The notes beneath the pieces are model-generated. The model was not told the DNA's origin. It was given only the letters and a program-made list of their open reading frames with translations, and searched no databases. 64,000 bases of DNA from contig JAFWEX010000074.1 of the NCBI GenBank assembly GCA_017512705.1, positions 60,418 through 124,417 on the forward strand, given 5' to 3'. The stretch comes from Paenibacillus sp. (GTDB taxonomy: Bacteria > Bacillota > Bacilli > Paenibacillales > Paenibacillaceae). The translations under genes and the position numbers were made by a program. Shown here one piece after another: positions 1 to 18,722 of this stretch. The first letter of the stretch is position 1. Every line of letters begins with the position of its first letter.

Positions 1-2
1 TG

Positions 3-740
3 GCATCACCGAGTGTGTTCGGAATCAACTCAGGTGCCATATTCTGTATTGTTATTGCTGTTGTGGTGCTGTCCGTGTCTTCCTTGACCACGATGATGTG
101 GTTTGGATTTGCGGGGGCGGCGATCTCCGCAGCTATTGTATACATGCTTGGTTCTCTGGGCCGTGATGGACTGACGCCGATTAAAATTGTGCTTGCCGGT
201 ACTGCGATCTCTGCCTTGTTTGCTTCCTTTACTCAGGCAATTCTTGTGCTCGATGGCACCGGACTGCAGGATGTATTATTCTGGCTTGCCGGTTCGGTCA
301 GTGGGCGAACGCTAGAGATGTTGTACCCGGTATTACCTTATATGGCGTTGGCAGCACTGATATCGCTATTCATGGGACGAGCCATTAACCTGTTACTAAC
401 AGGAGATGATATTGCAAAGGGTATGGGACAGAATGTGCTCCTGGTCAAAGTGTTGATGGGGGTCGTTACCGTGTTACTGGCGGGTGGTTCCGGTGCAGTA
501 GCCGGTTCGATCGGTTTGGTAGGTCTTGTTGTACCGCATATCATGCGTGCTTTGGTAGGCAATGATTATCGCTGGCTCATTCCTTATTGCTTCGTGGGTG
601 GGGCGATTCTGTTGATGTCAGCCGATGTCGTAGCAAGACTCGTAATTATGCCTCAGGAAGTTCCGCTTGGCATCATGACGGCATTAATCGGTGGTCCTTT
701 CTTCGTATATATCGCCCGCAAGGGGGTGACGAAGATATGA
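3..740 (+). CDS. FecCD-family siderophore ABC permease, 5' end outside window
   Basis: Inner-membrane permease subunit of an iron-siderophore importer (FecCD/BtuC family). The reading frame is already open at base 3 (A-S-P-S-V-F-G-I-N-S-G-A), which is the conserved region near the first third of these proteins, so roughly 90-100 N-terminal residues lie upstream of the window. The visible part is almost entirely hydrophobic helices and includes the family's G-x-I-x-F/L-V-G-L-V-x-P-H-I motif (here SIGLVGLVVPHI) that contacts the ATPase. The TGA overlaps the ATG of the next permease (ATGA), so the two are translationally coupled and should act as a heterodimer. A substrate-binding lipoprotein is probably encoded further upstream. 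The neighbouring siderophore operon suggests it imports that ferric siderophore; this is inference. Confidence 0.93.
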   Translation, partial: ASPSVFGINSGAIFCIVIAVVVLSVSSLTTMMWFGFAGAAISAAIVYMLGSLGRDGLTPIKIVLAGTAISALFASFTQAILVLDGTGLQDVLFWLAGSVSGRTLEMLYPVLPYMALAALISLFMGRAINLLLTGDDIAKGMGQNVLLVKVLMGVVTVLLAGGSGAVAGSIGLVGLVVPHIMRALVGNDYRWLIPYCFVGGAILLMSADVVARLVIMPQEVPLGIMTALIGGPFFVYIARKGVTKI

Positions 741-1780
741 GAAAAATGGTGACATATCGGAATAAGAAAGACACGGTCTCCATGCAAGTGGAGCGCAAGT
801 CTATGCTGGTCATTGCTGGATGTATATTTTTGTTTCTGGTAGCTGGAGTGGTAGGAACAAGTTTAGGCAGTGACTTTATATCTCCATTGGACGTTGTAAA
901 AACAATCTTCGGACTGAACGCAGGAGAGCATGATTTCGTTGTGTTAACACTGCGGCTGCCGCGTGTGCTGCTGTCTCTGTTAGTAGGTGCAGCACTGGGG
1001 ATGTCCGGTGCGTTGCTACAAGGCATTATCCGTAATCCACTTGCGTCGCCTGACGTCATCGGCATAACTGGTGGTGCGGCGGTAGCAGCAGTAGGATGTG
1101 TAACGCTATTGGGCGGGGCTGTAAACATAAAGCTGTTGCCACTCTTTGCGATCATCGGTGCATTAATTACCGCATTGATCATCTATATTCTTGCTTGGAA
1201 AAAAGGAGTTAGTCCGATCCGCCTCGTTCTTATAGGTATAGGCGTATCGGCTATAACGGGGGCTGGAACGACCTTTATGTTGATCCTAAGTCCATTCTAC
1301 ACGGCAAGTCAGGCTTATATCTGGCTGACAGGTAGCATCTATGGAGCCACATGGACAGATGTTCGTACGATATTGCCTGTAGTTGTTCTCATTGTTCCTC
1401 TCGCGATATGGTTTGCCCGGAGCCTGAATGCACAGGAGTTTGGAGATGACCTTGCCACAGGACTTGGCGTTACAGTGCAGTGGCATCGATCAGCTCTGTT
1501 GTTATGCAGTGTCCTGCTCGCTGGAGTTGCGGTGTCTGTCGCTGGGACGATCGGTTTCGTCGGTCTGATTGCTCCGCATATTGCAAGAAAGCTGGTCGGA
1601 CGCATGTTCGGCAGCTTGCTGGTAGTATCGGGATTCGTGGGTGCTCTGCTGGTATGTGCGGCGGATCTCATTGCTAGAACGGCATTTCTTCCGCTGGATA
1701 TTCCTGCTGGTGTATTTACCGCAGGCATCGGTGCGCCATTTTTCCTGTACTTACTATTTAAGAATCGAAACCACTATTAA
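737..1780 (+). CDS. FecCD-family siderophore ABC permease
   Basis: Second permease of the ferric-siderophore importer, 347 residues, the usual length for FecCD. I start it at the ATG inside the ATGA overlap with the upstream permease; the open frame extends further 5' but only inside the upstream gene. The visible family motifs are L-R-L-P-R-V-L near residues 74-80, N-P-L-A-S-P-D near 103-109, and [13 protein letters not shown] near 268-280, where the coupling helix meets the ATPase. About nine hydrophobic helices are visible after a short polar N-terminus. It ends 13 bases before the ATPase gene, giving the order permease-permease-ATPase known from cbrBCD of achromobactin and from fec/fhu operons. 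Confidence 0.95.
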
Positions 1781-1793
1781 GGAGGGGGAAGCC

Positions 1794-2618
1794 ATGAGTA
1801 TTTTGCAAGCCAAGGAGCTTACCATTGCCTATGGGGCAGATCCGATTATAGAAAATTTGAACCTGACCATCCCCAAGGGAGAGATAACGGTCCTGATCGG
1901 CAGTAATGGCTGCGGCAAATCGACATTGCTGCGTACCATGGCAAGGCTGTTGAAATCCAGCTCAGGCACGGTATTACTGGATGGTGAAGAGATTGCGAAG
2001 CTCCCTACCAAAGAAATCTCAAGACGCATGTCTATTTTGCCTCAAGGCCCATCGGCGCCAGAGGGTTTAACCGTACATCAACTGGTACGTCAAGGCCGTT
2101 ATCCCCACCAGACTTGGCTTAAGCAGTGGTCCCGTGAGGATGAACGTATGGTTGAGCTGGCGCTGGAGTCCACACATCTGACAGCACTAGCGGATCGGCC
2201 TGTCGATGCGCTGTCCGGTGGTCAGCGTCAACGCGCATGGATCGCCATGACGCTGGCCCAGGGTACGGAAACCTTGTTGCTGGACGAGCCTACGACGTAT
2301 CTCGATATGACGCATCAGATCGATATTCTGGATCTGTTGTTTGAATTAAATGAAAGGGAAGGGCGTACCATCGTGATGGTGCTTCACGACCTGAATCTGG
2401 CTTGTCGTTACGCCCATCATATTGTAGCGGTGCACAACAAGTCGATCTATGCGGAAGGCAAACCGGAAGATATTATCACTCGTGATCTCGTGCGCAACGT
2501 TTTTCAGATGGAGTGTGATATTGCTGTAGATCCGTTATTCGGCACGCCCACCTGTATTCCGCATGGAAGAGGCAGGAAGCTGAATGAAGTGCAGCACCGT
2601 TATACTCAGCTAGCTTGA
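1794..2618 (+). CDS. Siderophore ABC transporter ATP-binding protein (FecE/FhuC type)
   Basis: Cytoplasmic ATPase that powers the two preceding permeases, 274 residues. Walker A is GSNGCGKST near residues 36-44, the signature is LSGGQRQR near 140-147, Walker B is LLLDEP near 161-166, and the switch histidine lies in V-L-H-D-L-N. ATG 1794 is chosen because a strong AGGAGGGGG precedes it by about 6 bases; the frame is open further upstream but lacks a ribosome site. The longer Q-loop ([13 protein letters not shown]) is typical of the iron-chelate import subfamily. It is followed by about 350 bases with no gene and then the Fur-controlled biosynthetic promoter, so the importer and the biosynthesis genes are separate transcription units. 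Confidence 0.95.
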
Positions 2619-2833
2619 TGATCAGGCGTCTCACACTCCTGTTCGCCAAGCATAAGCATATCCATACATACTGAATGGCACGTGGTACGGGGCATGGTTT
2701 CCGGGTTCTTTCGGCCAAACGGTATGCTGATATGGTCATTGGCTCAGGTCCAATCGGCCATGTTTCTTTACGTTTATTCATTTCTTGATTCCCCCATGGT
2801 TATATCATTCCATCATCATGAGGATAACGAAAT

Positions 2834-2880
2834 AGGCAAGCAGCGATTCGTGAACGCAATGGCTTGCCTGATTTGTTATG
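2834..2880 (+). terminator. Possible terminator of the importer operon
   Basis: AGGCAAGC and GCTTGCCT form an 8-bp inverted repeat around a 20-base loop, followed by a weak T-rich stretch. It sits in the 2619-2968 gap, which otherwise holds no credible gene. The loop is long and the T-tract poor, so this is only a candidate. Confidence 0.3.
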
Positions 2881-2968
2881 CCTTTTCTATTCTTTTATTC
2901 TTCTATCCCCAGTTTCAATGCAAATCCTCTTCAGAAAATAAAACTATTTTTTCCTTAAAAGTTTTATA

Positions 2969-2998
2969 TTGACAACGTATCGAGGCTTGCCATAAAAT
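2969..2998 (+). promoter_or_regulatory. SigA-type promoter of the siderophore operon
   Basis: TTGACA (2969-2974) is a perfect -35 hexamer, and TAAAAT (2993-2998) follows at an 18-base spacing, or ATAAAA at 17. The expected transcription start falls at about 3005, directly next to the Fur box, and the first gene begins at 3058. Confidence 0.75.
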
Positions 2999-3014
2999 AG
3001 ATTTTACATGATAC

Positions 3015-3029
3015 TGATAATCATTATCA
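3015..3029 (+). promoter_or_regulatory. Fur box (perfect 7-1-7)
   Basis: TGATAATCATTATCA is an exact match to the 7-1-7 Fur operator of Bacillus-type Fur (TGATAAT-N-ATTATCA) and a perfect palindrome around the central base. It lies just downstream of the predicted -10, where bound Fe-Fur would block transcription. It implies iron repression of the whole 3058-14815 operon. Confidence 0.9.
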
Positions 3030-3057
3030 ATAAAATCAACCGATAGGAAGGTCGGAT

Positions 3058-4080
3058 ATGCATACACTTCGTTCTAAACGCTCCATATTTCCAGAGGGAT
3101 TTGAGAATTTACAGAATCGGCTGATTCTGAACAAAGCAAAAGAGATGGGGATCGATTGCGAGCTGCTTGTAGACGGCTGCGAGGACTTTCTGAAGTTATC
3201 CACCCGGGACAAGCAGATCATCATTAACAAAACGAGAACGCATCGACTTCCACTGATTGCTGGATTGCTTGCTAAGAATAAACAGGCATGTAATCTGATC
3301 CTGCATGAGCAGGGGATGCCAGTACCCTCTCATATCGTCATTACGGCTATGGGGGAAGAAGCTGAACAATTTCTGAACGAGCACAGCTCCATCGTGGTCA
3401 AACCGCTGGATGCCAGCAGTAGTCAGGGGGTTACGCTGGATGTTCGCAATGTTGCTGAACTGGAAGCGGCAATAGATGCCGCAGCCAAGCATGGCAGTAG
3501 GATTATGCTGCAACAATATGTCACAGGAACCGACTACAGGGTGCTGATTATTAACGATCAGGTAGCCGCAGTGAACCAATATCGTCCTGTGTATGTGACG
3601 GGTGATGGTAGTTCCTCTGTTCGTGAATTGATTGAGATACTGAACCGCAGCCGACTACAGGACACGGAGATCGGTGTGTATGAAGCTTTTCCTGAGATTG
3701 ATCCCGATCATACACGTTTGTTGGATACGTTGCGTAAGCAAGGTGTTGCTCTGAATGACGTACCCCTTGCGGGACAAGAGATTGAGCTATATGACCTCCG
3801 TAATTCGGCAGCGGGCAAAATCAGTGAGTTTTACAGAGATTGTACAGATGACATTCATCCGGACAATGCTCAGATGATGGTCCAGGCTGCACGGTCACTC
3901 CAGATTGACGTAGCAGGTATAGATGTTCGATGCAAGGACATTCGAGTCCCCATGACTACTGCACAGGGAGGGATTCTGGAGGTCAACGCATTGCCAGATC
4001 TGACTCACCATGTGTATCCACATGGTGGGACCAGAAGGGATGTTGTCCGTCAATATCTGGAGTATCTATGTCAGAGTTGA
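3058..4080 (+). CDS. ATP-grasp amide ligase, cyanophycin-synthetase-like
   Basis: First gene of the siderophore operon, 340 residues, after a GGAAGG-type ribosome site. The protein resembles the ATP-grasp module of cyanophycin synthetase and bifunctional glutathione synthetase. The segment VVKPLDASSSQGVTLDV (about 119-135) carries the ATP-binding lysine and small-residue loop, followed by LQQYVTGTDYRVLIIN (about 158-173), and the C-terminal ILEVNALPDLTHH has the Mg-binding E-x-N motif. ATP-grasp enzymes of this type join a carboxylate to an amine through an acyl phosphate. I do not recall a homologue in the achromobactin or staphyloferrin B clusters, so this enzyme probably adds or links an extra amino acid, or makes a precursor. 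Its exact substrate cannot be read from the sequence. Confidence 0.8.
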   Translation: MHTLRSKRSIFPEGFENLQNRLILNKAKEMGIDCELLVDGCEDFLKLSTRDKQIIINKTRTHRLPLIAGLLAKNKQACNLILHEQGMPVPSHIVITAMGEEAEQFLNEHSSIVVKPLDASSSQGVTLDVRNVAELEAAIDAAAKHGSRIMLQQYVTGTDYRVLIINDQVAAVNQYRPVYVTGDGSSSVRELIEILNRSRLQDTEIGVYEAFPEIDPDHTRLLDTLRKQGVALNDVPLAGQEIELYDLRNSAAGKISEFYRDCTDDIHPDNAQMMVQAARSLQIDVAGIDVRCKDIRVPMTTAQGGILEVNALPDLTHHVYPHGGTRRDVVRQYLEYLCQS

Positions 4081-4195
4081 TGGTTGACGGTTCGTTTATA
4101 GCATCATAAGGCGATTTTTTGTTGGAGTGGAAGAACAGTCTATAACGAATGTACGGGCATTTTGGGCCTGAATTGATGATAAGGGGCGTTTGACA

Positions 4196-5554
4196 GTGAT
4201 GTCAGTAGAGGTACAGACGGAATACCTGAAGCTGCAGAACGAGAAGGAGTCGAATGCACGAGCGTACTCCAGGCATTTTCCGCTCGTGATCAGCAAGGCA
4301 CAAGGAATGAAGATTACGGATACAGAAGGCCGTGAGTATTACGATTGCTTGGCAGGTGCGGGGACACTGGCGCTTGGACATAACCATGAGACGGTCGTTG
4401 GGGCCATCCGGGATGTCTTGGATCAGCAGATTCCTTTACATACCCTGGATCTCGCTACTCCGCTGAAGCTTTCGTATATGCAGGAGCTATTCTCCCTGTT
4501 GCCTGAAGAGATTCGGGATCAATCCAAAATTCAGTTCTGCGGTCCAACGGGGGCGGATGCGGTTGAAGCCGCGATCAAACTTGTGAAACACGCAACAGGT
4601 GGAAAATCCATTCTGGCTTTCCAAGGCGGATATCACGGTTCCACCCAAGCGACGATGTCGATGAGCGGTAATCTGAGTAAAAAAGAAAGCTTGCAGAGCC
4701 TCCTGCCGGATGTGCACTTCTTGCCGTTTCCGTATGAATACCGCTGTCCATTTGGCGTTGGTGAAGGCATGACTGCCCGCTTGAGTGCACAGTACATTGA
4801 GAACTTGCTGGATGATTGTGAGAGTGGAATAGCTGCACCATGCGGTGTAATCGTAGAAACGGTACAGGGCGAGGGCGGTGCCATTCCTGCGGATCTGGAG
4901 TGGCTGAGAGCGCTACGCAGGATCACTGCAGAACGGAATATTCCGCTCATTATAGATGAAGTGCAGACGGGCATTGGACGGACAGGACGTATGTTTTCGT
5001 TTGAACATGCTGGAATTGTACCTGATGTCATCATCTGCTCCAAAGCCGTAGGCGGCAGTCTTCCCATGTCTGTTGTGATCTATAAGGAAGAGCTGGATCA
5101 GTGGAAGCCGGGAGCACATACGGGCACATTTCGTGGCAATCAGCTAGCCATGGCTGCGGGTCTGGCGACGCTCCGTTATATCCAGGAGCATAATGTCATG
5201 CATAATGTACTGCTGCGCAGTGAGCAATTCATGACACGGTTACTGGCGTTGAAAGACCGTTTTGCCGAGATTGGTGACGTCCGCGGTCGTGGGCTGATGA
5301 TCGGTGTTGAAGTGGTGAACCCACAAGGCAGCAAAGATCGTCTGGGGCATTATCTCCAGCATGGTGAACTGGCTTCGGTCATTCAGCAGCAATGTTTCCG
5401 TAATGGACTGATTGTGGAACTTGGCGGACGTCATTCGGCGGTTGTACGTTTCCTGCCACCACTAAATATTACAGAGGAGGAAGCAGGCGAGGTACTGGAC
5501 ATCTTTGAACGATCGGTAGCGGAAGCTGTTGCGCTAACGGGAGCAGGATGTTGA
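4196..5554 (+). CDS. Class III aminotransferase, diaminobutyrate--2-oxoglutarate type (AcsF/RhbA-like)
   Basis: PLP-dependent transaminase expected to make L-2,4-diaminobutyrate from aspartate semialdehyde and glutamate. The family signature is clear: QFCGPTGADAVEAAIKLVK near residues 105-123, GGYHGST in the PLP phosphate region, IIDEVQTGIGRTG, and ICSKAVGGSLP with the Schiff-base lysine. GTG 4196 is taken as start because AAGGGG lies 9 bases upstream; ATG 4199 and TTG 4190 are alternatives. It follows the ATP-grasp gene after about 115 bases and overlaps the MFS gene by 7 bases. It supplies the diamine in achromobactin (AcsF) and rhizobactin 1021 (RhbA); staphyloferrin B clusters instead carry SbnA/SbnB for diaminopropionate, which are absent here. 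Confidence 0.88.
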   Translation: MMSVEVQTEYLKLQNEKESNARAYSRHFPLVISKAQGMKITDTEGREYYDCLAGAGTLALGHNHETVVGAIRDVLDQQIPLHTLDLATPLKLSYMQELFSLLPEEIRDQSKIQFCGPTGADAVEAAIKLVKHATGGKSILAFQGGYHGSTQATMSMSGNLSKKESLQSLLPDVHFLPFPYEYRCPFGVGEGMTARLSAQYIENLLDDCESGIAAPCGVIVETVQGEGGAIPADLEWLRALRRITAERNIPLIIDEVQTGIGRTGRMFSFEHAGIVPDVIICSKAVGGSLPMSVVIYKEELDQWKPGAHTGTFRGNQLAMAAGLATLRYIQEHNVMHNVLLRSEQFMTRLLALKDRFAEIGDVRGRGLMIGVEVVNPQGSKDRLGHYLQHGELASVIQQQCFRNGLIVELGGRHSAVVRFLPPLNITEEEAGEVLDIFERSVAEAVALTGAGC

Positions 5555-7002
5555 GTATGGCATTACTTCGGCGACATGCGGTTTTATTCGCTATTTTGCT
5601 CGGAGCTTTTACACTAGTGCTTACTAACAGTGCGTTTAACCTGCTGCTTCCGTATTTTATTGAATATTATGATATTTCTACGACGGCAGGCGGGTGGATC
5701 ATTGCCCTGTATATGCTCGCCATGACATTAACGATGCCGCTGGCTTCCCTGATTGTAGACCGGTTGGGGCGCAAGCGGACATACATGATGGGCATCTGCA
5801 TTTATGGGGTGTTCTCGGTGATAGGGGCATTGTTCCATTCCTATATAGAAGCGTTGCTGCTTGTAAGGTTCATGCATGGTGTAGCAGCAGGACTGATGAT
5901 TCCTTTATCCCTCGTGTTGCTGTTCGATGTCTACGGCCCGGAGGTGCGGGGACGCATTACAGGGGCGTGGGGATTGCTGCTCATGCTTGCTCCAGCGGCG
6001 GGGCCGACCCTTGGTGGATTTATCATTCAGTATGGACGGCTGGAGATGCTGTTCTGGCTGAATGTACCTTTGGCTGTTTTTTCACTAATCGGCTGTGGAC
6101 GAGTGATTCAGGCCTACACCCCCGCTCGCAGGAAAAAGTGGCATCCATCCAGTGTATTCCGAATTGTTGGTGCAGTGGGTGCGCTCAGTCTGGGTGTACA
6201 GGTGTACGCCAGTCCTGCAGTAGTTCCATGGATACCTTGGACATTGATTGCCCTTGGTGTAGTGTTGCTTATTCGTTTTATTCAGGTGGAGAATGAACGG
6301 GATGAGCCGCTCATTCGTTATTCGTTGCTGCGAAGAAAAGGTGTTTTTCCACTTACCGTGCTGATCTCCACGATTCAGGATTGTGTCATGTTTGGCGTGA
6401 TTTTTGCCCTGCCACTGCTATTCCAGGAAGTATTTCAGTTGTCTCCGGCGCTTTCAGGTGCCCTGTTCATTCCGCTCTCCATCTCCACTAGCCTGTTCAT
6501 GTGGATCGGAGGAAATCTGCTGGATCGGGGGCACTCACTTCGGTTTATTGCTTGGGGAACGCTGCTGGTATCGGTATCCATTTTGTCATTTGCATTTCTG
6601 CCTATGGGGGTATCCATCTGGATCATCGGGGTTCTCATGGCGTGCCGAGGAATTGGAGTGGGGTTGTCCGGTATGAGCATCTCGGCGATAGGGCTGCAGG
6701 CGTTACCTGATGAGGATATGCATGAAGGATCGGTGCTGTCCACAACGATTGAACGACTGGCTTCATCGTTTGCAGTCATGGGCTTAACACTGTATTACGA
6801 TATGCGCTGGCAGTGGCTTGCTGAGAATGGCAGAGCAGTTCACTTGGCTAAATGGGGAGCTCTTCAAGAGATCTGCATAGGTCTTGGCTGTGCCATCCTG
6901 CTGACGCTGCCTCTAGTCTTACTTATCATTCGAAAGAAGGTTGGCTTCATTGTTCAAAATGGAAAACAAACTCCGGTCCAAGGCGGAGCAACAGGCCGAT
7001 GA
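5548..7002 (+). CDS. MFS siderophore exporter (DHA2-like; SbnD/YhcA position)
   Basis: A 484-residue membrane protein with about 14 hydrophobic helices. The MFS motif DRLGRKRTYMMG lies between helices 2 and 3, and the motif-C-like stretch MLAPAAGPTLGGFI lies in helix 5, typical of drug/H+ antiporters of the EmrB/QacA group. ATG 5548 overlaps the aminotransferase stop; ATG 5557 has better spacing to GGAGCAGG. It sits where sbnD lies in staphyloferrin B clusters, directly before the first type A synthetase, so export of the finished siderophore is the likely role. Its 3' end overlaps the next gene, showing tight coupling. Confidence 0.88.
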   Translation: MLSMALLRRHAVLFAILLGAFTLVLTNSAFNLLLPYFIEYYDISTTAGGWIIALYMLAMTLTMPLASLIVDRLGRKRTYMMGICIYGVFSVIGALFHSYIEALLLVRFMHGVAAGLMIPLSLVLLFDVYGPEVRGRITGAWGLLLMLAPAAGPTLGGFIIQYGRLEMLFWLNVPLAVFSLIGCGRVIQAYTPARRKKWHPSSVFRIVGAVGALSLGVQVYASPAVVPWIPWTLIALGVVLLIRFIQVENERDEPLIRYSLLRRKGVFPLTVLISTIQDCVMFGVIFALPLLFQEVFQLSPALSGALFIPLSISTSLFMWIGGNLLDRGHSLRFIAWGTLLVSVSILSFAFLPMGVSIWIIGVLMACRGIGVGLSGMSISAIGLQALPDEDMHEGSVLSTTIERLASSFAVMGLTLYYDMRWQWLAENGRAVHLAKWGALQEICIGLGCAILLTLPLVLLIIRKKVGFIVQNGKQTPVQGGATGR

Positions 7003-8803
7003 GCATTCTTGCAAGCTGTTGCTGAACTGTTATATCCGTGAGCTTGGATCGGAACAAGCAGATCATGTGCAGCTTAACCCGAATACGCTGACGTATACGA
7101 TTGCATTTCCAACCAGCAATGTAAGGGTGACGGGGCTGTTGTCCTATTACTCAGCAATGGGTGAGCATGAATATCTCAGCATGAATTGTAACGGACAATC
7201 TGTCCATTACCGAGACCTGGTGCGCTGGATTTCATCTGAAATTGACGGAGATCAGGGCGGGGTAGCCGAACTTGTGCGTGACTTTGCTCAAAAGGTCGAG
7301 AATAGCGTGGCTAACCTAACCTTGTATCTTGAACATGCGTACGATTCCGGGATACATGACTACATAACATCCGAACAGTCCTTGTTGTACGGGCATCCGT
7401 TTCACCCTTTTCCGAAAAATTCCAGCGGTTTCTCTGCCCAGGATGTGCAGCAATATAGTCCAGAACTGCGAACCTCGTTCCAGCTCTGTTATATCGCCGT
7501 AAGGAAGGATGTGTATGCCGAGGAGTGGGTGAAACATTCGGACAAAATCGATCTGCATCAGCTTCTGGTAAACCAAGACTGGCCTGTGTCCCCAAAAAAG
7601 CTAGGCATGTATGGGCTGTTGCCTATGCATCCATGGCAGTATGCACACATCTCAGGTATAGACGAAGTGCAGTCGTATATCCGTGAAGAGAAGATATTGC
7701 TGCTCGGCAGTGCGGGTCCGCTCGCCTACCCCACTTCTTCTGTGCGCACGGTGTATGTTCCAGAATGGAACTGCAATATCAAGCTGTCGCTGAATATGCA
7801 GATTACGAACATGATTCGCACCAATAGTGCAGAGCAGATGCGGCGAACGCTGGATGCCTCCCGATATGTGTGGCAGCAGGGTTGTTTCGATGTCGAGGAT
7901 CAGACTCATATCGCGTATGAGACAGGTGTAGCGACATGTATGTTCGAGGATGAAGATCTTACGAGCTTGTTCACAATTGCCTATCGACCGATCGAGTTCG
8001 ATCCTGCCAATACATATGTATTGTCCAGTCTGGTGGAGTCGCCGCTGCCAGGAGCACCATCACGGCTAGTGACCCTGCTGAGTGGTAAAAGAGATCATGT
8101 CGATGTTGCTGACCGTGACATGGTCGAGCAGTGGCTGTCACAATATCTTGCCTGCTCGCTGCTACCGCTTGTGCGGGCGGCTGGAGAGAAGGGCATTCAT
8201 TTTGAAGCCCATCTGCAGAACACCTTGGTGACGCTGGAACAAGGCAAGCCGGTTGCTTTTATCGTGCGTGATCTGGAAGGGGTCAGTGTGGACGAGCAGT
8301 TGGCCAGTGGATTGCCCAGGGAACAGAGCATGGCTCAGAGTTCACAGGCTCAGGCGGGACAAAATCAGATGGGACAGGAGTACGAGCAACTGTCTGAGCA
8401 ATATCATCGAGACTCCACTCAGGGGCAAGGGCATGAACGGATGGAAGCTTCAACACTAGAAGTGTCCGAGTTGTTGTTTTACCCGCGTGAGAAGGCGTGG
8501 GCGCGGACCTCGTACTATTTTATCGTGAATCATCTGGGATCGTTAATTCATGTATTGGCCCGGGATATGAATGTGCCGGAGGAACATTACTGGATACAGG
8601 TGCGTGAGGTGCTTGAAGAGGAACTGGCACGAACAGGTAACGCTTATGTAGAGCATTTGCTGACCACAGAAGCCTTTCTGGCGAAACAAAACCTGGTGAG
8701 TTGTCTCACGGGCATTAGTCAGACCCCGGCTTATGTGCCGGTAGGTAACGTCATGAAACGTTTAGGGAGTGAAGTACGTGAGATTCGTGGGAATCAGAAC
8801 TGA
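6959..8803 (+). CDS. NIS siderophore synthetase, IucA/IucC family (SbnE/AcsD-like)
   Basis: Condenses a carboxylic acid, probably citrate, with an amine or alcohol via an acyl adenylate. Visible family motifs: GHPFHP with a K and GFS about 5 and 9 residues later, LPMHPWQYAH, YPTSSVRTVY, KLSLNMQITNMIR, FEAHLQNTLV and FIVRDLEGVSVD. The last two resemble staphyloferrin SbnE closely as I recall it, which suggests the citrate-first type A enzyme. ATG 6959 is used; TTG 6950 (9 bases from AGAAGG) is an alternative. A Gln/Ser-rich insertion of about 50 residues (about 450-500) interrupts the domain before the conserved WARTSYYFIVNHLG segment and has no counterpart I remember. The start overlaps the exporter gene. 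Confidence 0.9.
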   Translation: MENKLRSKAEQQADEHSCKLLLNCYIRELGSEQADHVQLNPNTLTYTIAFPTSNVRVTGLLSYYSAMGEHEYLSMNCNGQSVHYRDLVRWISSEIDGDQGGVAELVRDFAQKVENSVANLTLYLEHAYDSGIHDYITSEQSLLYGHPFHPFPKNSSGFSAQDVQQYSPELRTSFQLCYIAVRKDVYAEEWVKHSDKIDLHQLLVNQDWPVSPKKLGMYGLLPMHPWQYAHISGIDEVQSYIREEKILLLGSAGPLAYPTSSVRTVYVPEWNCNIKLSLNMQITNMIRTNSAEQMRRTLDASRYVWQQGCFDVEDQTHIAYETGVATCMFEDEDLTSLFTIAYRPIEFDPANTYVLSSLVESPLPGAPSRLVTLLSGKRDHVDVADRDMVEQWLSQYLACSLLPLVRAAGEKGIHFEAHLQNTLVTLEQGKPVAFIVRDLEGVSVDEQLASGLPREQSMAQSSQAQAGQNQMGQEYEQLSEQYHRDSTQGQGHERMEASTLEVSELLFYPREKAWARTSYYFIVNHLGSLIHVLARDMNVPEEHYWIQVREVLEEELARTGNAYVEHLLTTEAFLAKQNLVSCLTGISQTPAYVPVGNVMKRLGSEVREIRGNQN

Positions 8804-8819
8804 GGCAGGCGATAAGAAG

Positions 8820-10658
8820 ATGAACGACGATACAGTCCCCGTATACGTGGAAGTTCAGGAACGGATTATACGGCAGGCGCTGGAAGCGCTGTGGTTCGAA
8901 GATATTCTGGATCGTCAGGTGAACGGGAGTGAGTGGGCTACCAGCGGTATGACTGTGTCCGGTGAATCTGTAGTGTATACGTGTGAAGCGGAGCAGAAGT
9001 TTTCGTTTGGCCGGGTGAAGGTGAAGAAGGGGTCCATTAAGCGCGAAGGAATTGCCTGTACGGATCTGGATGTTTTCTTGGAAGAGATGGTGCTGAACCG
9101 CTTGAAGGGGGCAAAACTGACGGCCTTTGTTCAGGAGCTGCAAGAAACGATGGCAAAAGACAGTCAATGCCGCGCTATGCTTCCTCTTAGCATTCCGGTA
9201 GAGGATCGGCACTACGATGCGCTGGAAAGTCACATGATCGACGGTCATCTATATCATCCAAGTTATAAGTCCAGACTGGGGTTCTCGCTGAAAGACAACC
9301 TCGCCTACGGTCCGGAGTTCAATGCAGACGTTTCACTGATCTGGGTTGCGGTGAGAAAAGAACTGGCTCAAACGGCTGTATCCGATGGTTATGACCTGTC
9401 AGCACTGCTAGAACAGCATCTGACCAATGAGGATATGCAGCAATTCCGTCAGATGATCTCAACCAGAACAGCTTCGTTAGATATGGATTCGTACGTGTTG
9501 ATTCCGCTTCATCCGTGGCAGTGGGAGCACGCAGTGGAGTCCATATTTGCCAAACAGCTAATGGATGGAGACATCATTAATCTGGGTGCTTCGGTCTCAG
9601 CCTACCGTGCCCAGCAGTCCATTCGTTCTCTGTCCAATCGGGAAAATCCGGTGGCACCTTATATCAAGCTGGCTTTGAGTATCACCAACACATCCAGCAC
9701 ACGCATTCTCGCCCAGCATACGACGCAAAACGCACCCCTAATCAGCGACTGGCTGGATCAACTGGTGCGTGACGATGAGTTGTTACAGCGGGAGCAGTTT
9801 GCCATTTTAAAAGAAATCATGGGTCTGTCGTTCCGTTACGAACAATTACCTATCACTCAATACGGCCGCGCTTATGGCACTCTGGGTGCGATCTGGCGCG
9901 AAAATGTATCCGTTCATCTGAAAGCAGATGAAACGGCTTGGCCGCTGAATGCACTCATGCTCGTGCAGCGGAACGGGATTCCTTTTATACAAGAGGCCAT
10001 CGAGCGGCATGGTGTTCAGCCTTGGGCTGAGGCGCTGGTGCGTACACTCACATTGCCTGTTATTCATCTCTTGTATGCGCACGGGATTGCGTTCGAATGC
10101 CACGCTCAAAATATCATTTTGGTGCTGGAAAACGATCTGCCAAAACGTATCATCCTGAAGGATCTGCATGATGGCGTTCGTTATGTTCCAGATCAGCTAT
10201 TACACCCGGAGCGTGCACCGAAGCTGCATCCTGAACCGGAAACCCACCGCAAATTTAACCGATATTCGTTCATCTATGCTGAGGATGTGTCGGAGGTACG
10301 CGACTATACGTATGATGCATTCTTTTTTATCTGCATGACAGATATTGCGCTTATGCTGGAAACCTATGGTCTACCTGAAGAAACCTTCTGGCAGCTGTGC
10401 GCCCGTGTGATCCTGGATTACCAGCGGCAACATCCCGAGTATGCCGAGCGGTTTGAGATGTTTGATCTTCTGGCAGAGGATGCTCTGATTGAAGAAATGA
10501 CAAAGCGCCGCCTGTATGGCGATGGTGAGTTGTATTTCCGCAAAACTAGCAATCCACTCCGGTTGGCGAAGGATATGCTTGAACAGAAGAATGAACTTGA
10601 AGAGAAGAACACACTCGAACAGAAGGAAGAATTCAAACAGAAGGTAGCAGACCGATGA
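8820..10658 (+). CDS. NIS siderophore synthetase, IucA/IucC family (SbnF/AcsC-like)
   Basis: Second NIS synthetase, about 612 residues, in the position of sbnF. Motifs: GHLYHPSYKSRLGFS, IPLHPWQWEH, SIRSLSNRENP with ALSITNTSSTRIL, FECHAQNIILVLE and IILKDLHDGVRY. The N-T-S-S-T-R-I loop and the KDLHDG segment fit the type C-like enzymes that condense a partly built citrate conjugate with the next building block. ATG 8820 leaves a 16-base gap after the previous gene; the frame also allows GTG 8769 inside that gene. The C-terminus ends in a charged tail of repeated Glu-Gln-Lys (about 25 residues), probably disordered. The stop overlaps the next ATG. Confidence 0.9.
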   Translation: MNDDTVPVYVEVQERIIRQALEALWFEDILDRQVNGSEWATSGMTVSGESVVYTCEAEQKFSFGRVKVKKGSIKREGIACTDLDVFLEEMVLNRLKGAKLTAFVQELQETMAKDSQCRAMLPLSIPVEDRHYDALESHMIDGHLYHPSYKSRLGFSLKDNLAYGPEFNADVSLIWVAVRKELAQTAVSDGYDLSALLEQHLTNEDMQQFRQMISTRTASLDMDSYVLIPLHPWQWEHAVESIFAKQLMDGDIINLGASVSAYRAQQSIRSLSNRENPVAPYIKLALSITNTSSTRILAQHTTQNAPLISDWLDQLVRDDELLQREQFAILKEIMGLSFRYEQLPITQYGRAYGTLGAIWRENVSVHLKADETAWPLNALMLVQRNGIPFIQEAIERHGVQPWAEALVRTLTLPVIHLLYAHGIAFECHAQNIILVLENDLPKRIILKDLHDGVRYVPDQLLHPERAPKLHPEPETHRKFNRYSFIYAEDVSEVRDYTYDAFFFICMTDIALMLETYGLPEETFWQLCARVILDYQRQHPEYAERFEMFDLLAEDALIEEMTKRRLYGDGELYFRKTSNPLRLAKDMLEQKNELEEKNTLEQKEEFKQKVADR

Positions 10659-11431
10659 GGATAAACACACTGAAAGAAAAGATTGCCCGCAAACAGGAGG
10701 TCTTTGGCCTTTTTGTATCCATCCCGCATCCGATCATTATCGAGATGATTGGTCATGCGAATTATGATTTTGTCATCATTGATCTGGAGCATACGTCAAC
10801 GTCGATGGAAACGGTGGAAGAGTTGATTCGGGCAGCCGAAGGGGTTGGACTCACACCTCTTGTACGGATTCCAAAGGTGGAGCGGACAGAGATTCTGAAG
10901 GTGCTGGACTGCGGTGCACAGGGCATCGTGATCCCCCACGTGGAGACACTTGCCCAAGTGAAGGAAACTGTACATCATGCGTATTATCATCCATTGGGGA
11001 TGCGCAGTTTGAACAGCGGACGTCCGGGGGTATTCGGTAAATTCCCGCTAACGGATTACATTGCAGAAGCCAACTCGCAGGTCATGATTGTGCCGATGAT
11101 CGAAAGTGTGAAGGGTGTGCGGCAGAGCCCGGAGATTCTATCTCATCCGCAGGTGAGCTTTGTGCTGGAAGGTGCAGCAGACTTGTCCCAATCACTTGGT
11201 GTACCTTGGCAGACAAATCACCCGGAAGTGAGGGAGGCACTGGACGTATTGTATGAGAACGCGAAACAAGCGCGGGTACCGTATGCGACCGTCACAAGAG
11301 GAATCGAAGATATGGCCGTATGGCGTGAGCGTGGTGTGCGGATCTATGTGCTTGGGGATGACCGGAATACGGCATTTCGTGCCTACGCCCAAAAGCGTAA
11401 TGACTATGAAAATGCAGGTGGAGCGATATGA
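10655..11431 (+). CDS. HpcH/HpaI-family aldolase, SbnG-like citrate synthase
   Basis: 258 residues, class II pyruvate-aldolase fold. Visible signatures are IIDLEHTS near residues 41-48 (family His46), LVRIPK, GIVIPHVET, and the metal-binding glutamate in MIVPMIES (E150), with an aspartate in GAADLS (D176). SbnG of Staphylococcus uses this fold to make citrate from oxaloacetate and acetyl-CoA, independent of the TCA cycle, and AcsB is the achromobactin homologue. The position between the second synthetase and the PLP decarboxylase is the same as sbnG. Coupled on both sides by ATGA overlaps. The likely role is a dedicated citrate supply when iron starvation lowers TCA flux. Confidence 0.9.
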   Translation: MRINTLKEKIARKQEVFGLFVSIPHPIIIEMIGHANYDFVIIDLEHTSTSMETVEELIRAAEGVGLTPLVRIPKVERTEILKVLDCGAQGIVIPHVETLAQVKETVHHAYYHPLGMRSLNSGRPGVFGKFPLTDYIAEANSQVMIVPMIESVKGVRQSPEILSHPQVSFVLEGAADLSQSLGVPWQTNHPEVREALDVLYENAKQARVPYATVTRGIEDMAVWRERGVRIYVLGDDRNTAFRAYAQKRNDYENAGGAI

Positions 11432-12717
11432 GAATCCGTGTAAAGGAAGCATTAGATGCGATTCAGCATGAATCACATGAGCCAATCTGTGCGTACATCT
11501 ACGATCTGGCCGGTGTTCAGGAACAGGTGCGAGGCATGCTGCACACGATGCCATTACATACGCACTTGTTCTATGCGATCAAAGCTAATCCCGATCCACA
11601 CATTATTGAAGCGCTGCTTCCATTGGTGAAGGGGTTTGAGGTGGCATCGATTGGGGAGCTGCTGAAGGTTCGAGCGGTGAGCCGTGAAGTTCCGATCCTG
11701 TTTGGCGGCCCGGGCAAGAAGGAAAGTGAACTGAGGCTGGCGATCGAGCACAACGTGAGTTATATCCATGTCGAGAGTCTGCTGGAGCTGCGTCGCATTA
11801 TTGCGATTGTAAACGAACGAGAGGAGCAGGGGCGAGGGCGATCGGGAGAAGAGCATAAGTCTGACGTGCGTGTGCTGCTCCGCATCAACCTGCGAAGTAA
11901 CACCTTGCCACAGACCAAGATTGTGATGGGTGGCGGTCCCAGTCCATTTGGTATCGATGAAGAGGCGGTGGAAGAAGCCATTGAACTGATTCGTGTGGAA
12001 GGCGCGGGCAAGGTTCAGTTGTGCGGATTTCATTTTCATTCTCTGTCCAACAACATGGATGCAAGGCTGCATGCTGAGATGATCGAGCTGTATTTGCAAA
12101 AGGTAGAGCACTGGCAGCAGCAATATCATTTGCAGGTGAAGGTGGTCAATGCAGGCGGTGGCTTTGGGGTGACGTATGACGGCAGTCCGGGCTTCGACTG
12201 GTCTTTGTTTACTGCGCTTTTGCAGCAGAGTGGAGCCAGACAGCGTTTTGCTGGGCGTGGTGGAGAGTTATTTTTCGAATCCGGTCGCTTGCTCGTGGCA
12301 GACCACGGGTATTATGCAGCCGAAGTGATAGATATCAAACGTTCCCATGGGCAGATGTTTGTCATTATACGGGGAGGTACACATCATCATCGCTTGCCTG
12401 CATCGTGGGGGCATAATCATCCTTATCAGATTGTTAATACGGATCGATGGAAGCATGAGTTCATAAGACCGGAGATACGAGGAGAGCGAGCCCATATCGT
12501 GGGTGAATTATGTACACCGAAGGATCGCATGCATTCGGATGCGGAGATTGAGCAGCTAGGCGTAGGCGATTTGATTGTGTTTGAAAAATCCGGTGCGTAT
12601 GCCTGGACGATCTCGCATCATGATTTTCTAGGACACCCGCATCCGGCATTCCACTATTTGACGGAGGATGATGAGCATGTCAACGCTAATGCAACGTTCC
12701 AGTCGGCAAATCGCTGA
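11428..12717 (+). CDS. PLP-dependent fold-III decarboxylase (SbnH/AcsE-like)
   Basis: 429 residues of the alanine-racemase-fold decarboxylase family (diaminopimelate/ornithine type). The PLP lysine lies in FYAIKANPDP (about residues 45-54), the glycine-rich phosphate loop is NAGGGFG (about 238-244), and the dimer-interface active-site motif is GELCTPKD. SbnH removes the carboxylate of the amino acid after it has been attached to citrate, and AcsE forms ethanolamine-type units. Here it would convert an amide-linked or free amino acid into its amine. It follows the aldolase as in sbn and overlaps the last synthetase gene by about 40 bases. A short charged insertion (about 131-142, E-E-Q-G-R-G-R-S-G-E) looks non-conserved. 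Confidence 0.9.
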   Translation: MRIRVKEALDAIQHESHEPICAYIYDLAGVQEQVRGMLHTMPLHTHLFYAIKANPDPHIIEALLPLVKGFEVASIGELLKVRAVSREVPILFGGPGKKESELRLAIEHNVSYIHVESLLELRRIIAIVNEREEQGRGRSGEEHKSDVRVLLRINLRSNTLPQTKIVMGGGPSPFGIDEEAVEEAIELIRVEGAGKVQLCGFHFHSLSNNMDARLHAEMIELYLQKVEHWQQQYHLQVKVVNAGGGFGVTYDGSPGFDWSLFTALLQQSGARQRFAGRGGELFFESGRLLVADHGYYAAEVIDIKRSHGQMFVIIRGGTHHHRLPASWGHNHPYQIVNTDRWKHEFIRPEIRGERAHIVGELCTPKDRMHSDAEIEQLGVGDLIVFEKSGAYAWTISHHDFLGHPHPAFHYLTEDDEHVNANATFQSANR

Positions 12718-14815
12718 ACAACAGGTGATGTCCGATCTGATGAATAGCCTGCTCGCAGAGCGGTTGCTTCCGCTGCAAGGTCAGGCGTTTGTCGACTTGG
12801 CTGCTGCACCTGTAGAGTTTAGGCAGTACTACAAGGGATATGAAGCAGATGGGGAAAAGAGTCGTGAGAAGCGTGGTACGTCCCATCTTACACACGATCA
12901 AGCTGCTGATGTGCAGAACAATATGGCATATAGCTACAGTGAGCGTAGTTCCATCGAGGATACACCCAGTAAGGATAAACTCAGTGAGAATAAGCCCAGT
13001 CGGTATAGCTCCAGTGTAGATAAATCTAATGAGGATCGCTCCAACAAGTGTAACTCTACGGGGGATAGCTCCAATGGGGATAAATCCACTGAGGGTAGCT
13101 ACGGTGGGGATTGCTCCAATGAGGATAACGTTACTGAGGATAAATCTACGGCTGCGCTGGATTTCCGTTTGGGTTTGCATACCGAGGGTGTGTTGTGTCT
13201 GGTCGAAAACGGGGTGAGGCAGGGCATTCAGTGGGTTCAAGGATCACCGATCTATCAACAGCATTCGGATGGGAGTTGGACGGTGCTGGATACTCCAGCG
13301 GAAGTGGCTCGAGTGGTATTGCAGCAGGCATTATCTGCGGAAGCCTATGCACAGCCTGGTGTGACAGATTTCCTGGCAAGTTTGGAGTTGGCGGTAGAGC
13401 ATTATACACTTGGATGGGATCAAATTCAGGCGTTGTCTGCCTACCATCCGAGGTCCTCATATGAATGGTTTGTCAAAAGTGAGCGCATTGCTGCACTCCG
13501 GGATCGCCCGTTCCATCCAACCTCCAAAGCAAAGGTTGGGTTCAGTGCGGAAGACGTCAAAGATTATGCCGCCGAATTCGGACAAACCATCCGGCTGCGT
13601 TGGGTGGCGATCCAGCGAAATGCTGTGCAGCAGGGATGTCTAGATGGACTGTCTATTCTGGATATGCTGTATGATGCTCAGCGTGAAGAGATTCAGTCCG
13701 AATGTGATCGCAGAGGCCTGTCGATGGACGAATATTTGCCCATGCCGGTGCACCCGTGGCAGCTGGAGCACATCATTCTGCCGCGGTTTACGAAAGAGAT
13801 CGTGGAGGGCAGCATTGTGGTGCTGGATGTTCAGATTGGAGACGTATGGGCCACGTCATCTCTGCGGTCGATGGCTCAGACCGCAGAATCTGCCCTCATG
13901 CTCAAGCTGCCCGTTAGTGTGTTGTCGCTAGGTGCTGCGCGATATCTTCCGGTTGTTAAGCTGCTGAACGGACTGGTGGGCGAGAAGATGTTAAGACAGG
14001 CGGTAGCTTGTGACGAGACTTTGAAAGACAGAGTGTATATGTGTGAAGAACAGAACTGGTGGGGATACATGCCAGAGTGGGCGGGACTGTTCGACGATCA
14101 CCCGCGGCACTTGGCGGCGCAGATTCGTGTCTATCCCGCGGAACTGCTGGATGATGCCTACCGCATTGTTCCGATGGCTGCACTCGGCGTCAATCTGGAC
14201 GGGCATCATTTGTTAAGCGAGATGGTGGGCAGGGATCTAAGTGCAGTAGAAGTGTTGGACTTTTACGGGGCTATAGCTTCTACTTTTTATGATATCGTTA
14301 TGCGTCTGTTCAAAGTGGGTGTGGTGCCGGAGATTCATGGTCAGAACTGCTGTCTGGTGTTAGAGCATCATCAGGTGAAGGGACTGTTGTTCCGGGATCA
14401 TGACTCTGTGCGTTTGCATCAGCCGTATCTGGATCAGCATAGAATTGCCGATCCGGGGTATCACATCCGTCCGGGGTATTCGAACAGTCTGTATAATGAG
14501 ACCATCCAGAAGCTGATCTTCTATGTGCAATCTCTAGGTACGCAGGTGAATCTGGCTGCGATCATGGAGGCGATGAGCGAAGTGTACGACATCCCGGAAA
14601 CGAAGTTCTGGGAGATCACGGAGCAGGCTTGGCGGGAAGCGCTGCACCAGGTGCAGCTTCCCGAGACGGATCGGGCCATGCTGGAGCGCGTCATCTTCGA
14701 GAGCGAGGCGTGGCCTGTGAAGCTCGTTGTCCGTCCGCTGCTTGAGGCGGACGGTGTGCCTGGCGCGATGCCATCGGGCAAAGGCCAAGGGTGGAACCCT
14801 TTTTACAAGAGATAG
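12677..14815 (+). CDS. NIS siderophore synthetase, IucA/IucC family (SbnC/AcsA-like), with pentapeptide-repeat insert
   Basis: Third NIS synthetase and last gene of the operon, 712 residues, about 120 more than I expect for the family. Motifs: RPFHPTSKAKVGFS, MPVHPWQLEH, SSLRSMAQTAES, EIHGQNCCLVLE, FRDHDSVRLHQPYL. The R-D-H-D motif points to the type B group, which adds alpha-ketoglutarate. ATG 12677 is 9 bases after ACGGAGG; ATG 12668/12671 are too close to it. The excess length is mainly a hydrophilic N-terminal insert of 15 five-residue units (residues about 85-159) that is not needed for the fold. In staphyloferrin B clusters this gene precedes the exporter; here it has moved to the operon end. 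Confidence 0.9.
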   Translation: MSTLMQRSSRQIAEQQVMSDLMNSLLAERLLPLQGQAFVDLAAAPVEFRQYYKGYEADGEKSREKRGTSHLTHDQAADVQNNMAYSYSERSSIEDTPSKDKLSENKPSRYSSSVDKSNEDRSNKCNSTGDSSNGDKSTEGSYGGDCSNEDNVTEDKSTAALDFRLGLHTEGVLCLVENGVRQGIQWVQGSPIYQQHSDGSWTVLDTPAEVARVVLQQALSAEAYAQPGVTDFLASLELAVEHYTLGWDQIQALSAYHPRSSYEWFVKSERIAALRDRPFHPTSKAKVGFSAEDVKDYAAEFGQTIRLRWVAIQRNAVQQGCLDGLSILDMLYDAQREEIQSECDRRGLSMDEYLPMPVHPWQLEHIILPRFTKEIVEGSIVVLDVQIGDVWATSSLRSMAQTAESALMLKLPVSVLSLGAARYLPVVKLLNGLVGEKMLRQAVACDETLKDRVYMCEEQNWWGYMPEWAGLFDDHPRHLAAQIRVYPAELLDDAYRIVPMAALGVNLDGHHLLSEMVGRDLSAVEVLDFYGAIASTFYDIVMRLFKVGVVPEIHGQNCCLVLEHHQVKGLLFRDHDSVRLHQPYLDQHRIADPGYHIRPGYSNSLYNETIQKLIFYVQSLGTQVNLAAIMEAMSEVYDIPETKFWEITEQAWREALHQVQLPETDRAMLERVIFESEAWPVKLVVRPLLEADGVPGAMPSGKGQGWNPFYKR
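12929..13153 (+). repeat. 15-bp tandem repeat, 15 units, inside NIS synthetase gene
   Basis: Reading in frame from 12929 gives 15 consecutive five-residue units of the pattern D-x-S-[NTS]-[EGK] (for example DKSNE, DSSNG, DKSTE, DCSNE, DNVTE). Units diverge mostly at the second and fifth residues. Every unit is exactly 15 bases, so length changes keep the frame. Looks like an expandable, disordered linker. Confidence 0.85.
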
Positions 14816-14848
14816 AGCAGTTGCACCTGAAAGTTGTACCAGAGAAGA

Positions 14849-14877
14849 AGGTAACCCATGTTCGGGTTGCCTTTTTG
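14849..14877 (+). terminator. Intrinsic terminator of siderophore operon
   Basis: AGGTAACCC pairs with GGGTTGCCT (one G-U pair) around a 6-base loop, followed by TTTTTGTTG. It lies 33 bases after the last synthetase stop. Confidence 0.85.
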
Positions 14878-18000: not shown

Positions 18001-18722
18001 ATTACGCCAAAGGTGACGTTGGCAACGGCAATGAACGAGGGGTAGCCACAAGCCGGGACGGCGAGACTCATGTAGGTTTCCGTAACATCGACTTCGGACC
18101 GTACGGTTCGGATACGATTACGATTCCAATCTTTGCTTTGTCGAGTGAAGATTATTTCATTCAAATCTGGGAAGGTATGCCGGATGAGGAAGGCAGTACG
18201 ATGATTGCGAATGTCGTATATGACAAGGAATCGATATGGAATGTGTATCAGGAAGAGACGTATCGTTTATCCAAACGCCTGAAGGGCATCACTTCGATCT
18301 GTTTTGTTCTGAAACAGAAGATTCATATTAAAGGATTTTCGTTTGAACGTCAGAGCCGGGCCTTTGAACTAAATGCAGCAGCATCCTGCGATCATCTGTA
18401 TGGGGATTCGTTCACGGTGAGGGAAGATCGTGTGGAGGGCATCGGCAATAACGTATCACTGGAGTTCGAGCAGATGGATTTTACAAGTGAAGGTGCGTCG
18501 AGGCTGGTGATCTATGGTGCTTCTCCCATTGACAAAAACACGATTCATATCCGCTTCTCTGGGGCAGACGGCCAGCATAATCAATTGGTAGAGTTCACCC
18601 AGTCGGAAGGGTACGAGGAACGTTCATTTGAACTGGAGCGGGTGAGCGGAGAGCAGAAGGTGACCTTTATTTTCCTGCCAGGCAGTCAGTTTGATTTTGG
18701 CTGGTTCCGGTTCGAGAAATAA
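15063..18722 (+). CDS. Glycoside hydrolase family 2 enzyme (beta-galactosidase-like), multidomain
   Basis: 1219 residues, no signal peptide. The N-terminal sugar-binding domain has W-Q-F-A and E-L-P-H-D-W; an Ig-like domain follows, then the TIM barrel with acid/base MWSIGNE (about 406-412) and nucleophile candidate YGSETSS (about 488-494). After that come DUF4982/Ig-like modules (HLFPYWDFSPGQ; L-R-A-D-G-T-D-L-I-F-A-E-I-T-V; G-L-L-G-L-D-N-G-D type motifs), a Ser/Thr/Asn-rich linker (about 815-830), a further Ig-like segment and two C-terminal beta-rich domains resembling carbohydrate-binding modules. GAGGG lies 6 bases before ATG 15063; ATG 15102 is an alternative. It probably acts on beta-galactosides or glycan fragments; exact specificity is not readable. 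A cre-like site and a palindrome lie upstream. Confidence 0.88.
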   Translation: MLNYFNQKRVRNGMNVKRQFNEGWQFAKSGLGVTEPGDLSFEPVELPHDWLIYNTLDLYEDSIGWYRKTFQYVRDEQQVLLCFDGVYMDSSVYVNGQLVGEWKYGYSAFEHEITSALVEGDNELLVKVVHQSPNSRWYSGAGIYRNVWLKTRSRNHIITDGIYVTIQQQPDGWQVEVDTELRLAQDQRAELVHTILYQGQVVASSQAEVLANITEEGMEEIDAEIGLEKGNDAEALINTQQLQIQSPELWSPDTPNLYDLVTELRLISEDQAKKVIESVSQRIGFKHVRMDASEGFVLNGVNMKMNGVCEHHDLGALGAAFNVTALRRRFVLLKEMGVNAIRTAHNMPAKEFMELADEMGILVVSEAFDMWERAKTPYDYARFFPEWSYRDVRSWVRRDRNHVSLVMWSIGNEIYDTHADERGQEVTRMLMEYVQEFDPKGNARVTIGSNYMPWENAQKCADIVKLAGYNYAEKYYEQHHAEHPDWIIYGSETSSVVQSRGIYHFPYEQPVLDDDDEQCSALGNSTTSWGAKSPEYCILAERDHPYSLGQFLWTGFDYIGEPTPYHTKNSYFGQLDTATFPKDSYYIYQAAWTDYKKKPMVHLFPYWDFSPGQIIDVRVCSNAPRIELQLNGKTIGTYDIDHAHGTQLSGWWKVPYQAGELKAIAYDEHGNVIARDVQRSFGDASKLRIQSDRQQLRADGTDLIFAEITVEDEAGNPVHNANNRVQVKVSGAGRLLGLDNGDSTDYDPYKGVSRRLFSGKLMAIIGSTNEAGEVRIEVSSEGLQGTALAIEAVAANEKPKVEGVRVGSDFNADSTSTSNSTSIYAPNLQEPVYMKNEERPVLTGSANEIPLRKIEIISESGQLLDPSNPELVVTAKLYPQNTSYRDIEWSAVNDAGIVSNIAKVEVLNEGAVDGASTRSTNDHQHMVKVSAMGDGAFRLRATSRNGTDRTKLISQLEFKAEGLGTAYKDPYGFITGGLYNYAKGDVGNGNERGVATSRDGETHVGFRNIDFGPYGSDTITIPIFALSSEDYFIQIWEGMPDEEGSTMIANVVYDKESIWNVYQEETYRLSKRLKGITSICFVLKQKIHIKGFSFERQSRAFELNAAASCDHLYGDSFTVREDRVEGIGNNVSLEFEQMDFTSEGASRLVIYGASPIDKNTIHIRFSGADGQHNQLVEFTQSEGYEERSFELERVSGEQKVTFIFLPGSQFDFGWFRFEK

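Follow-up and report, generated by a model that had tools for sequence, protein, structure and literature searches.

A Fur-box siderophore operon of Paenibacillus with a cyanophycin synthetase-type ATP-grasp ligase probably directs the synthesis of an undescribed iron carrier

A 64,000-nucleotide stretch of Paenibacillus sp. DNA (contig JAFWEX010000074.1, assembly GCA_017512705.1; hereafter the window, taken at its full length) begins with an operon that probably makes a so far undescribed iron carrier. Downstream of importer genes, it encodes a stand-alone ATP-grasp ligase, a 2,4-diaminobutyrate (DABA) aminotransferase, an exporter of the major facilitator superfamily (MFS), two synthetases of the nonribosomal peptide synthetase-independent siderophore (NIS) type (NIS1 and NIS2), an aldolase, a pyridoxal phosphate (PLP)-dependent decarboxylase and a third NIS synthetase (NIS3). 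Our preferred interpretation, to which we assign a probability of about two in three, is a Fur-controlled NIS operon of the staphyloferrin B kind in which DABA would replace diaminopropionate and one extra amide bond would be formed. Judged by its gene content, the operon joins the first steps of staphyloferrin B synthesis to the diamino acid of achromobactin.

An earlier note on this DNA had listed the same importer and biosynthetic genes, and open reading frames (ORFs) and domain profiles confirmed the whole set, all of it intact except for the first importer permease, which is cut by the window start (Table 1). From 3058 to 14815 the genes run in one direction, overlapping or separated by short gaps, and every one of the three IucA/IucC genes of the genome (PF04183, over cut-off) lies within the operon. 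The Fur box claimed in that note proved to be a perfect 7-1-7 match, of which 20 simulated windows yielded none. From the sequence of this box, the operon is predicted to be Fur controlled.

The ATP-grasp gene and the operon occur together

The note had regarded the ATP-grasp gene as an extra member of the pathway and had proposed a search for it beside similar clusters in other genomes. That search, run over public genomes with an alignment of the ligase, returned 38 loci in Paenibacillus, Cohnella, Lysinibacillus and Caldalkalibacillus. In all 38, the gene was followed by the aminotransferase, NIS1, NIS2, aldolase, decarboxylase and NIS3 genes, with the exporter present in 33. Likewise, each locus had a Fur box of two mismatches or fewer, no farther than about 350 bp before the ATP-grasp match.

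These loci had been selected by the ligase itself; the reverse test used samples of 148 family genomes drawn alike for both searches, whose genome handles agree wherever both lists show them. Genomes with NIS1 matches formed two sets, 21 with E <= 6e-127 (49-100% identity) and 25 with E >= 1e-70 (<=44%). The ligase (E <= 1e-50) was present in the same 21 genomes that had a close NIS1 and in 0 of the other 127. An operon-type ligase (>400 bits) was found in four of 398 genomes sampled across the phylum, always within this operon, although in one of them (G162) the stretch ends before NIS3. Among 36 same-genus genomes (that of the window and 35 relatives), 16 had the ligase at >=50% identity, and the neighborhoods in the other 15 carriers showed the same operon, with NIS1 in two pieces in one relative (L026) and aldolase and decarboxylase read as a single ORF in another (L032). 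Six further same-genus genomes had NIS genes in threes without such a ligase: a sister operon was present in five, and the sixth, G017, had another kind of operon. The 38 loci and the same-genus genomes overlap in part, so that their counts are not additive. Chance neighborhood was rejected by the synteny of the 38 loci and the co-occurrence with NIS1 in 21 of 148 genomes. By its distribution, the ligase is a fixed, obligately linked part of the predicted pathway, to which the note had assigned it.

Two observations concern genes beside the ligase. In 20 of the 38 loci, five of them checked with Pfam, a gene for an FhuF-type 2Fe-2S reductase lies directly upstream of it, and 2 more loci have fragments; the window has none there, and its genome carries a single FhuF_C match, on a different contig. 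At two loci (L060 and L061) no importer permease stands next to the operon, and the ATPase gives just a partial match; the importer seems to have been lost or moved in some strains.

The ligase belongs to the cyanophycin synthetase G-module type

The 340-residue ligase aligned with residues 152-482 only of CphA1, and it equals the G module of that enzyme in predicted fold, length and conserved ATP/Mg core. The N-terminal and Mur-ligase modules of cyanophycin synthetase are not on the chain, and residues common to CphA and GshF are replaced. An alignment of the ATP-grasp proteins comprised 23 of the 38 loci and the window. In profile searches, CphA scored 173-203 bits and PvsA, the ATP-grasp protein of vibrioferrin-type clusters, <=5.2 bits in three of five, the scores of the other two being unreported; blastp against PvsA gave an E value of 0.71. 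Identity with PvsA was thus rejected by both methods. Vibrioferrin-type clusters come near to a described pathway that would supply the ligase: they do have an ATP-grasp enzyme, but of another family.

The ligase is 98% identical to that of Paenibacillus sp. JJ-100, and scanning it against a defense library gave no match. Two other short ATP-grasp proteins from the sample of 398 genomes (G412 and G407; 27-29% identity) fell among the glutathione ligases, where G407 stood on a long branch (support 85), and there was no NIS gene near them in the 15-16 kb examined. Enzymes of the cyanophycin synthetase family first convert a carboxylate to an acyl phosphate, which then reacts with the amine of an amino acid to form an amide; the CphA, GshF and RimK-group enzymes join a peptide-like carboxylate in this manner.

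The synthetases and the decarboxylase point to a hybrid of known systems

We next placed the NIS proteins in a phylogeny, as the earlier note had proposed, using reference clusters from plasmids: staphyloferrin B types of Bacillus badius, Methylocystis, Rhizobium, Agrobacterium and Pseudonocardia (all with SbnA, four of five with SbnB), achromobactin types of Sodalis (pSG1) and Thalassospira, and vibrioferrin types of two Vibrio, Cupriavidus necator, Pantoea and Rhodococcus, among which only the Pantoea annotation names PvsA. In the Sodalis and Thalassospira clusters, the later two NIS genes are taken as AcsC and AcsA from the acs gene order. Trees of NIS proteins and decarboxylases contained the window, 10 of the 38 loci and three of the five sister operons, with PvsD/PvsE from four of the five vibrioferrin-type clusters and AcsE from one of the two achromobactin-type clusters; they were quick searches with support from the Shimodaira-Hasegawa-like approximate likelihood ratio test (SH-aLRT) only.

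NIS1 grouped with SbnE, apart from AcsD and PvsD (support 97 in a tree of 81 NIS proteins and 99 in one of 33). Forcing NIS1 together with AcsD was rejected by the approximately unbiased (AU) test (p-AU 6e-104), as was forcing it together with AcsD and PvsD (p-AU 0.008). The decarboxylase grouped with SbnH, apart from AcsE and PvsE (branch support 99), in a tree with a single AcsE on a long branch. NIS2 fell with SbnF and the AcsC-position genes, and NIS3 was nearest the AcsA-position genes. The third NIS protein of the Bacillus badius cluster grouped with SbnF, not with SbnC, in the 81-protein tree. Each of NIS1, NIS2, NIS3 and the decarboxylase formed a single group in the ATP-grasp operons (support 100), whose nearest kin were the sister operons lacking the ligase, by NIS1 (together with G017; support 99) and by the decarboxylase (93). 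AcsD and PvsD use serine as a substrate. SbnE is described in PMC3179956 as using diaminopropionate and SbnH as decarboxylating that residue.

The aminotransferase scored over the cut-off of the DABA transaminase model, and neither SbnA nor SbnB gave a match over curated cut-offs anywhere in the genome, the assembly being 94.8% complete. Within those bounds, the absence of SbnA/SbnB was confirmed, and a supply of diaminopropionate by SbnA/SbnB encoded elsewhere in the genome was rejected. The proposal of a NIS product built on DABA or its decarboxylation product was supported. In contrast, the suggestion that the set without the ligase matches achromobactin was not supported, because the trees set both the type-A synthetase and the decarboxylase apart from AcsD and AcsE, as did the topology tests for the synthetase. 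The operon has SbnE- and SbnH-side enzymes with a DABA transaminase and no SbnA/SbnB; it is therefore neither sbn nor acs.

Several points weigh against this interpretation. The reference clusters were typed by gene content and annotation, not by the product of each strain. Both forced groupings were picked after the tree had been seen, and the more telling rejection is moderate (p 0.008). SbnC lies further out from NIS3 than the AcsA-position genes, and scores were far under the cut-offs of the SbnF model for NIS2 (502 of 900 bits) and of the SbnC model for NIS3 (386 of 700 bits). In the ATP-grasp operons, NIS1 and the decarboxylase stand on long stem branches (0.82-0.86 and 0.96, respectively), and their substrates may therefore have shifted from those of SbnE and SbnH. 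Lastly, passages of the reviews PMC5577590 and PMC6836290 assign PvsD to an amide bond, at odds with serine as its substrate.

A proposed assembly route and its alternatives

In the pathway that we infer, with its putative order of reactions and putative substrates for every enzyme, the aldolase would provide citrate and the aminotransferase DABA. NIS1 would couple the two, and the decarboxylase would convert the citrate-DABA product to citryl-1,3-diaminopropane. NIS2 would then add a second DABA and NIS3 α-ketoglutarate. The ligase would cap the free α-carboxylate of the DABA residue added by NIS2 with an amide to an amino acid. Capping at this position is the most economical proposal because that DABA has the only free amino-acid carboxylate of the intermediate, and it is the most likely role of the enzyme; the site of the extra amide, the choice of amino acid and the novelty of the structure are predicted in the same sense. 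The product would be exported by the MFS protein, and its ferric form recovered by the upstream ATP-binding cassette (ABC) importer.

The main rival to capping, which we consider unlikely, is an insertion: the ligase would place an activated free amino acid on the amine of the decarboxylated linker, where NIS3 would add α-ketoglutarate, yielding a vibrioferrin-like arm. Vibrioferrin has alanine between ethanolamine and α-ketoglutarate, and vibrioferrin-type clusters have an ATP-grasp gene beside NIS genes and a decarboxylase, but PvsA comes from a different ATP-grasp family. Moreover, CphA and GshF join the C-terminal carboxylate of a peptide to a free amino acid, which is the opposite polarity. 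PvsA may act on alanine, but passages of the reviews PMC5577590 and PMC6836290 give it the citrate ester instead, without enzyme-level proof.

It is more doubtful still that the product is a plain DABA analogue of staphyloferrin B and the ligase an accessory enzyme that makes a precursor dipeptide, frees iron inside the cell or serves redox balance. The five same-genus sister operons show that the core does not depend on the ligase, since they have the other seven gene types without it (an aminotransferase ORF in four of five). However, the ligase fully co-occurs with one type of NIS1, it is the first gene behind the Fur box at all 38 loci, and the three synthetases and the decarboxylase that accompany it form groups of their own. 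Achromobactin proper, which the naming in the note suggests, is very improbable: the AcsF-like aminotransferase, the AcsB-like aldolase and the affinity of NIS2 and NIS3 to the AcsC- and AcsA-position genes would suit it, but it was rejected on the trees and topology tests, in which the type-A synthetase falls on the SbnE side and the decarboxylase on the SbnH side. Capping of a citrate/DABA/α-ketoglutarate core thus remains our preferred reading.

Operon layout and putative regulatory sites

An ORF resembling a siderophore-binding (substrate-binding) protein, recognized by eye, lies on the same contig just upstream of the window. A scan for promoter-like sites returned 27, versus 15.1 expected in shuffles, and one for terminator-like sites 14, versus 10.0; these counts are near chance, and the promoter and terminator calls in Table 1 are therefore weak taken alone. 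Short tandem repeats (units of 15, 30 and 18 bp) at 12957-13127 in NIS3 and 10581-10643 at the end of NIS2 represent added low-complexity stretches. The NIS3 ORF, at 715 residues, is longer than those of 15 same-genus relatives (615-682). By eye, the next genes encode a glycoside hydrolase family 2-like protein (15063-18722, +) and a secreted RCC1-repeat-like protein (18817-20436, -).

Table 1. Genes and predicted sites of the siderophore operon (positions in the window)
Feature	Position	Strand	Evidence or remark
FecCD-type permease 1 of importer	1..740	+	5' end upstream of window on same contig, full 337-aa ORF there; syntenic in relatives
FecCD-type permease 2	737..1780 (start inferred, ~737)	+	PF01032, E 2.4e-92 for ORF from 587
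Iron-siderophore ABC transporter ATPase	1794..2618	+	PF00005, E 1.3e-32; best NCBIfam model FecE, below its cut-off
Sigma-70-like promoter match, TTGACA-18-TAAAAT	2969..2998	+	11 of 12 positions match
Fur box, perfect 7-1-7 palindrome	3015..3029		0 mismatches
Stand-alone ATP-grasp ligase, cyanophycin synthetase G-module type	3058..4080	+	profiles, alignment, tree, predicted fold
2,4-Diaminobutyrate--2-oxoglutarate aminotransferase (AcsF-like, class III)	~4199..5554	+	NF005393, 718.6 bits (cut-off 671)
MFS exporter, DHA2-like	5548..7002	+	PF07690, E 4.1e-45; TIGR00711, 175 bits, below cut-off 230
NIS1, type-A NIS synthetase, SbnE side	6959..8803	+	PF04183; trees; topology tests
NIS2, NIS synthetase, SbnF/AcsC side	8820..10658	+	tree; SbnF model, below cut-off
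SbnG/AcsB-like HpcH/HpaI aldolase, presumed citrate synthase	10655..11431	+	PF03328; 50% identity to Sodalis cluster aldolase
PLP-dependent decarboxylase, SbnH side	11428..12717	+	PF02784/PF00278; tree
NIS3, NIS synthetase, SbnC/AcsA side	12668..14815	+	tree; SbnC model, below cut-off
Terminator-like hairpin after NIS3	14845..14876	+	13-pair stem, then T-rich tail

Significance and comparison with known systems

No description of such an operon was found in the literature searched, whose coverage leaves out most subscription papers. In PMC4431377, which cites vibrioferrin, ATP-grasp enzymes of siderophore pathways are called peptide-like ligases. PMC3179956 reports SbnA/SbnB homologues in Paenibacillus sp. 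JDR-2, product unknown, and sbn-like genes in this genus were therefore already known. In passages of a 2026 survey of Gram-positive siderophore receptors (PMC13293324), Paenibacillus is mentioned only for its many receptors. We lean slightly toward the view that NIS assembly in Paenibacillaceae took up a CphA-type ligase in an event separate from that of PvsA in vibrioferrin. The resulting siderophore class would have a staphyloferrin B-like citrate/DABA/α-ketoglutarate core extended through a peptide-like amide by an amino acid, and would occur in Paenibacillus, Cohnella, Lysinibacillus and Caldalkalibacillus. If so, this would be a second, unrelated route of an ATP-grasp ligase into NIS pathways and the first of the cyanophycin type met in these searches. 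Many Paenibacillus would then make an undescribed siderophore whose mass should shift readably upon loss of one gene. Automatic annotation would probably label such clusters achromobactin- or staphyloferrin-like and miss the difference.

The operon shares with staphyloferrin B (sbn) systems the exporter-NIS-NIS-aldolase-decarboxylase run, which the earlier note had likened to sbnD-E-F-G-H and which recurs in four of the plasmid-borne sbn-type clusters used here, together with the grouping of NIS1, NIS2 and the decarboxylase with SbnE, SbnF and SbnH. It differs from them by a DABA aminotransferase in place of SbnA/SbnB, by the added CphA-type ligase, and by a NIS3 nearer the achromobactin enzyme than SbnC. 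With achromobactin (acs) clusters it has in common the DABA aminotransferase (57% and 50% identity to those of the two acs-type clusters), an aldolase of the citrate-forming type, a DHA2-like exporter (compared with one Sodalis exporter only) and the closest relatives of NIS2 and NIS3, but it lacks an AcsD- or AcsE-type enzyme and has the ligase in addition.

Vibrioferrin (pvs) clusters similarly combine an ATP-grasp gene with NIS, MFS and PLP decarboxylase genes; in four of five it opens the biosynthetic series, and in Pantoea it comes after the aldolase. In contrast to the operon, they have an ATP-grasp enzyme of another family, two NIS enzymes rather than three, and synthetase and decarboxylase of the PvsD/PvsE clade, and a DABA transaminase is not among the annotated genes of the five pvs-type stretches. 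A gene of the SbnG-like aldolase/citrate lyase family occurs in the vibrioferrin-type clusters of Cupriavidus necator pHG1, Pantoea soli and Rhodococcus, and the annotation shows none next to the two Vibrio clusters. As for CphA1, the ligase resembles its G module alone, and unlike CphA1 it comes from a NIS operon preceded by a Fur box, lacks the N-terminal and Mur-ligase modules and has the residues shared by CphA and GshF replaced.

The Paenibacillus sister operons (G004, G006, G007, G032 and G035) have the same gene types in the same order and hold, with G017, the nearest relatives of the window NIS1, but they lack the ligase, and their MFS and NIS1 proteins are only 30-33% identical to those of the window. 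In one of them (G004), unlike the operon, a protein that by eye combines AraC-like and binding-protein-like parts (L040, 14607-16310), likely a siderophore-sensing regulator, is encoded downstream and followed by importer genes.

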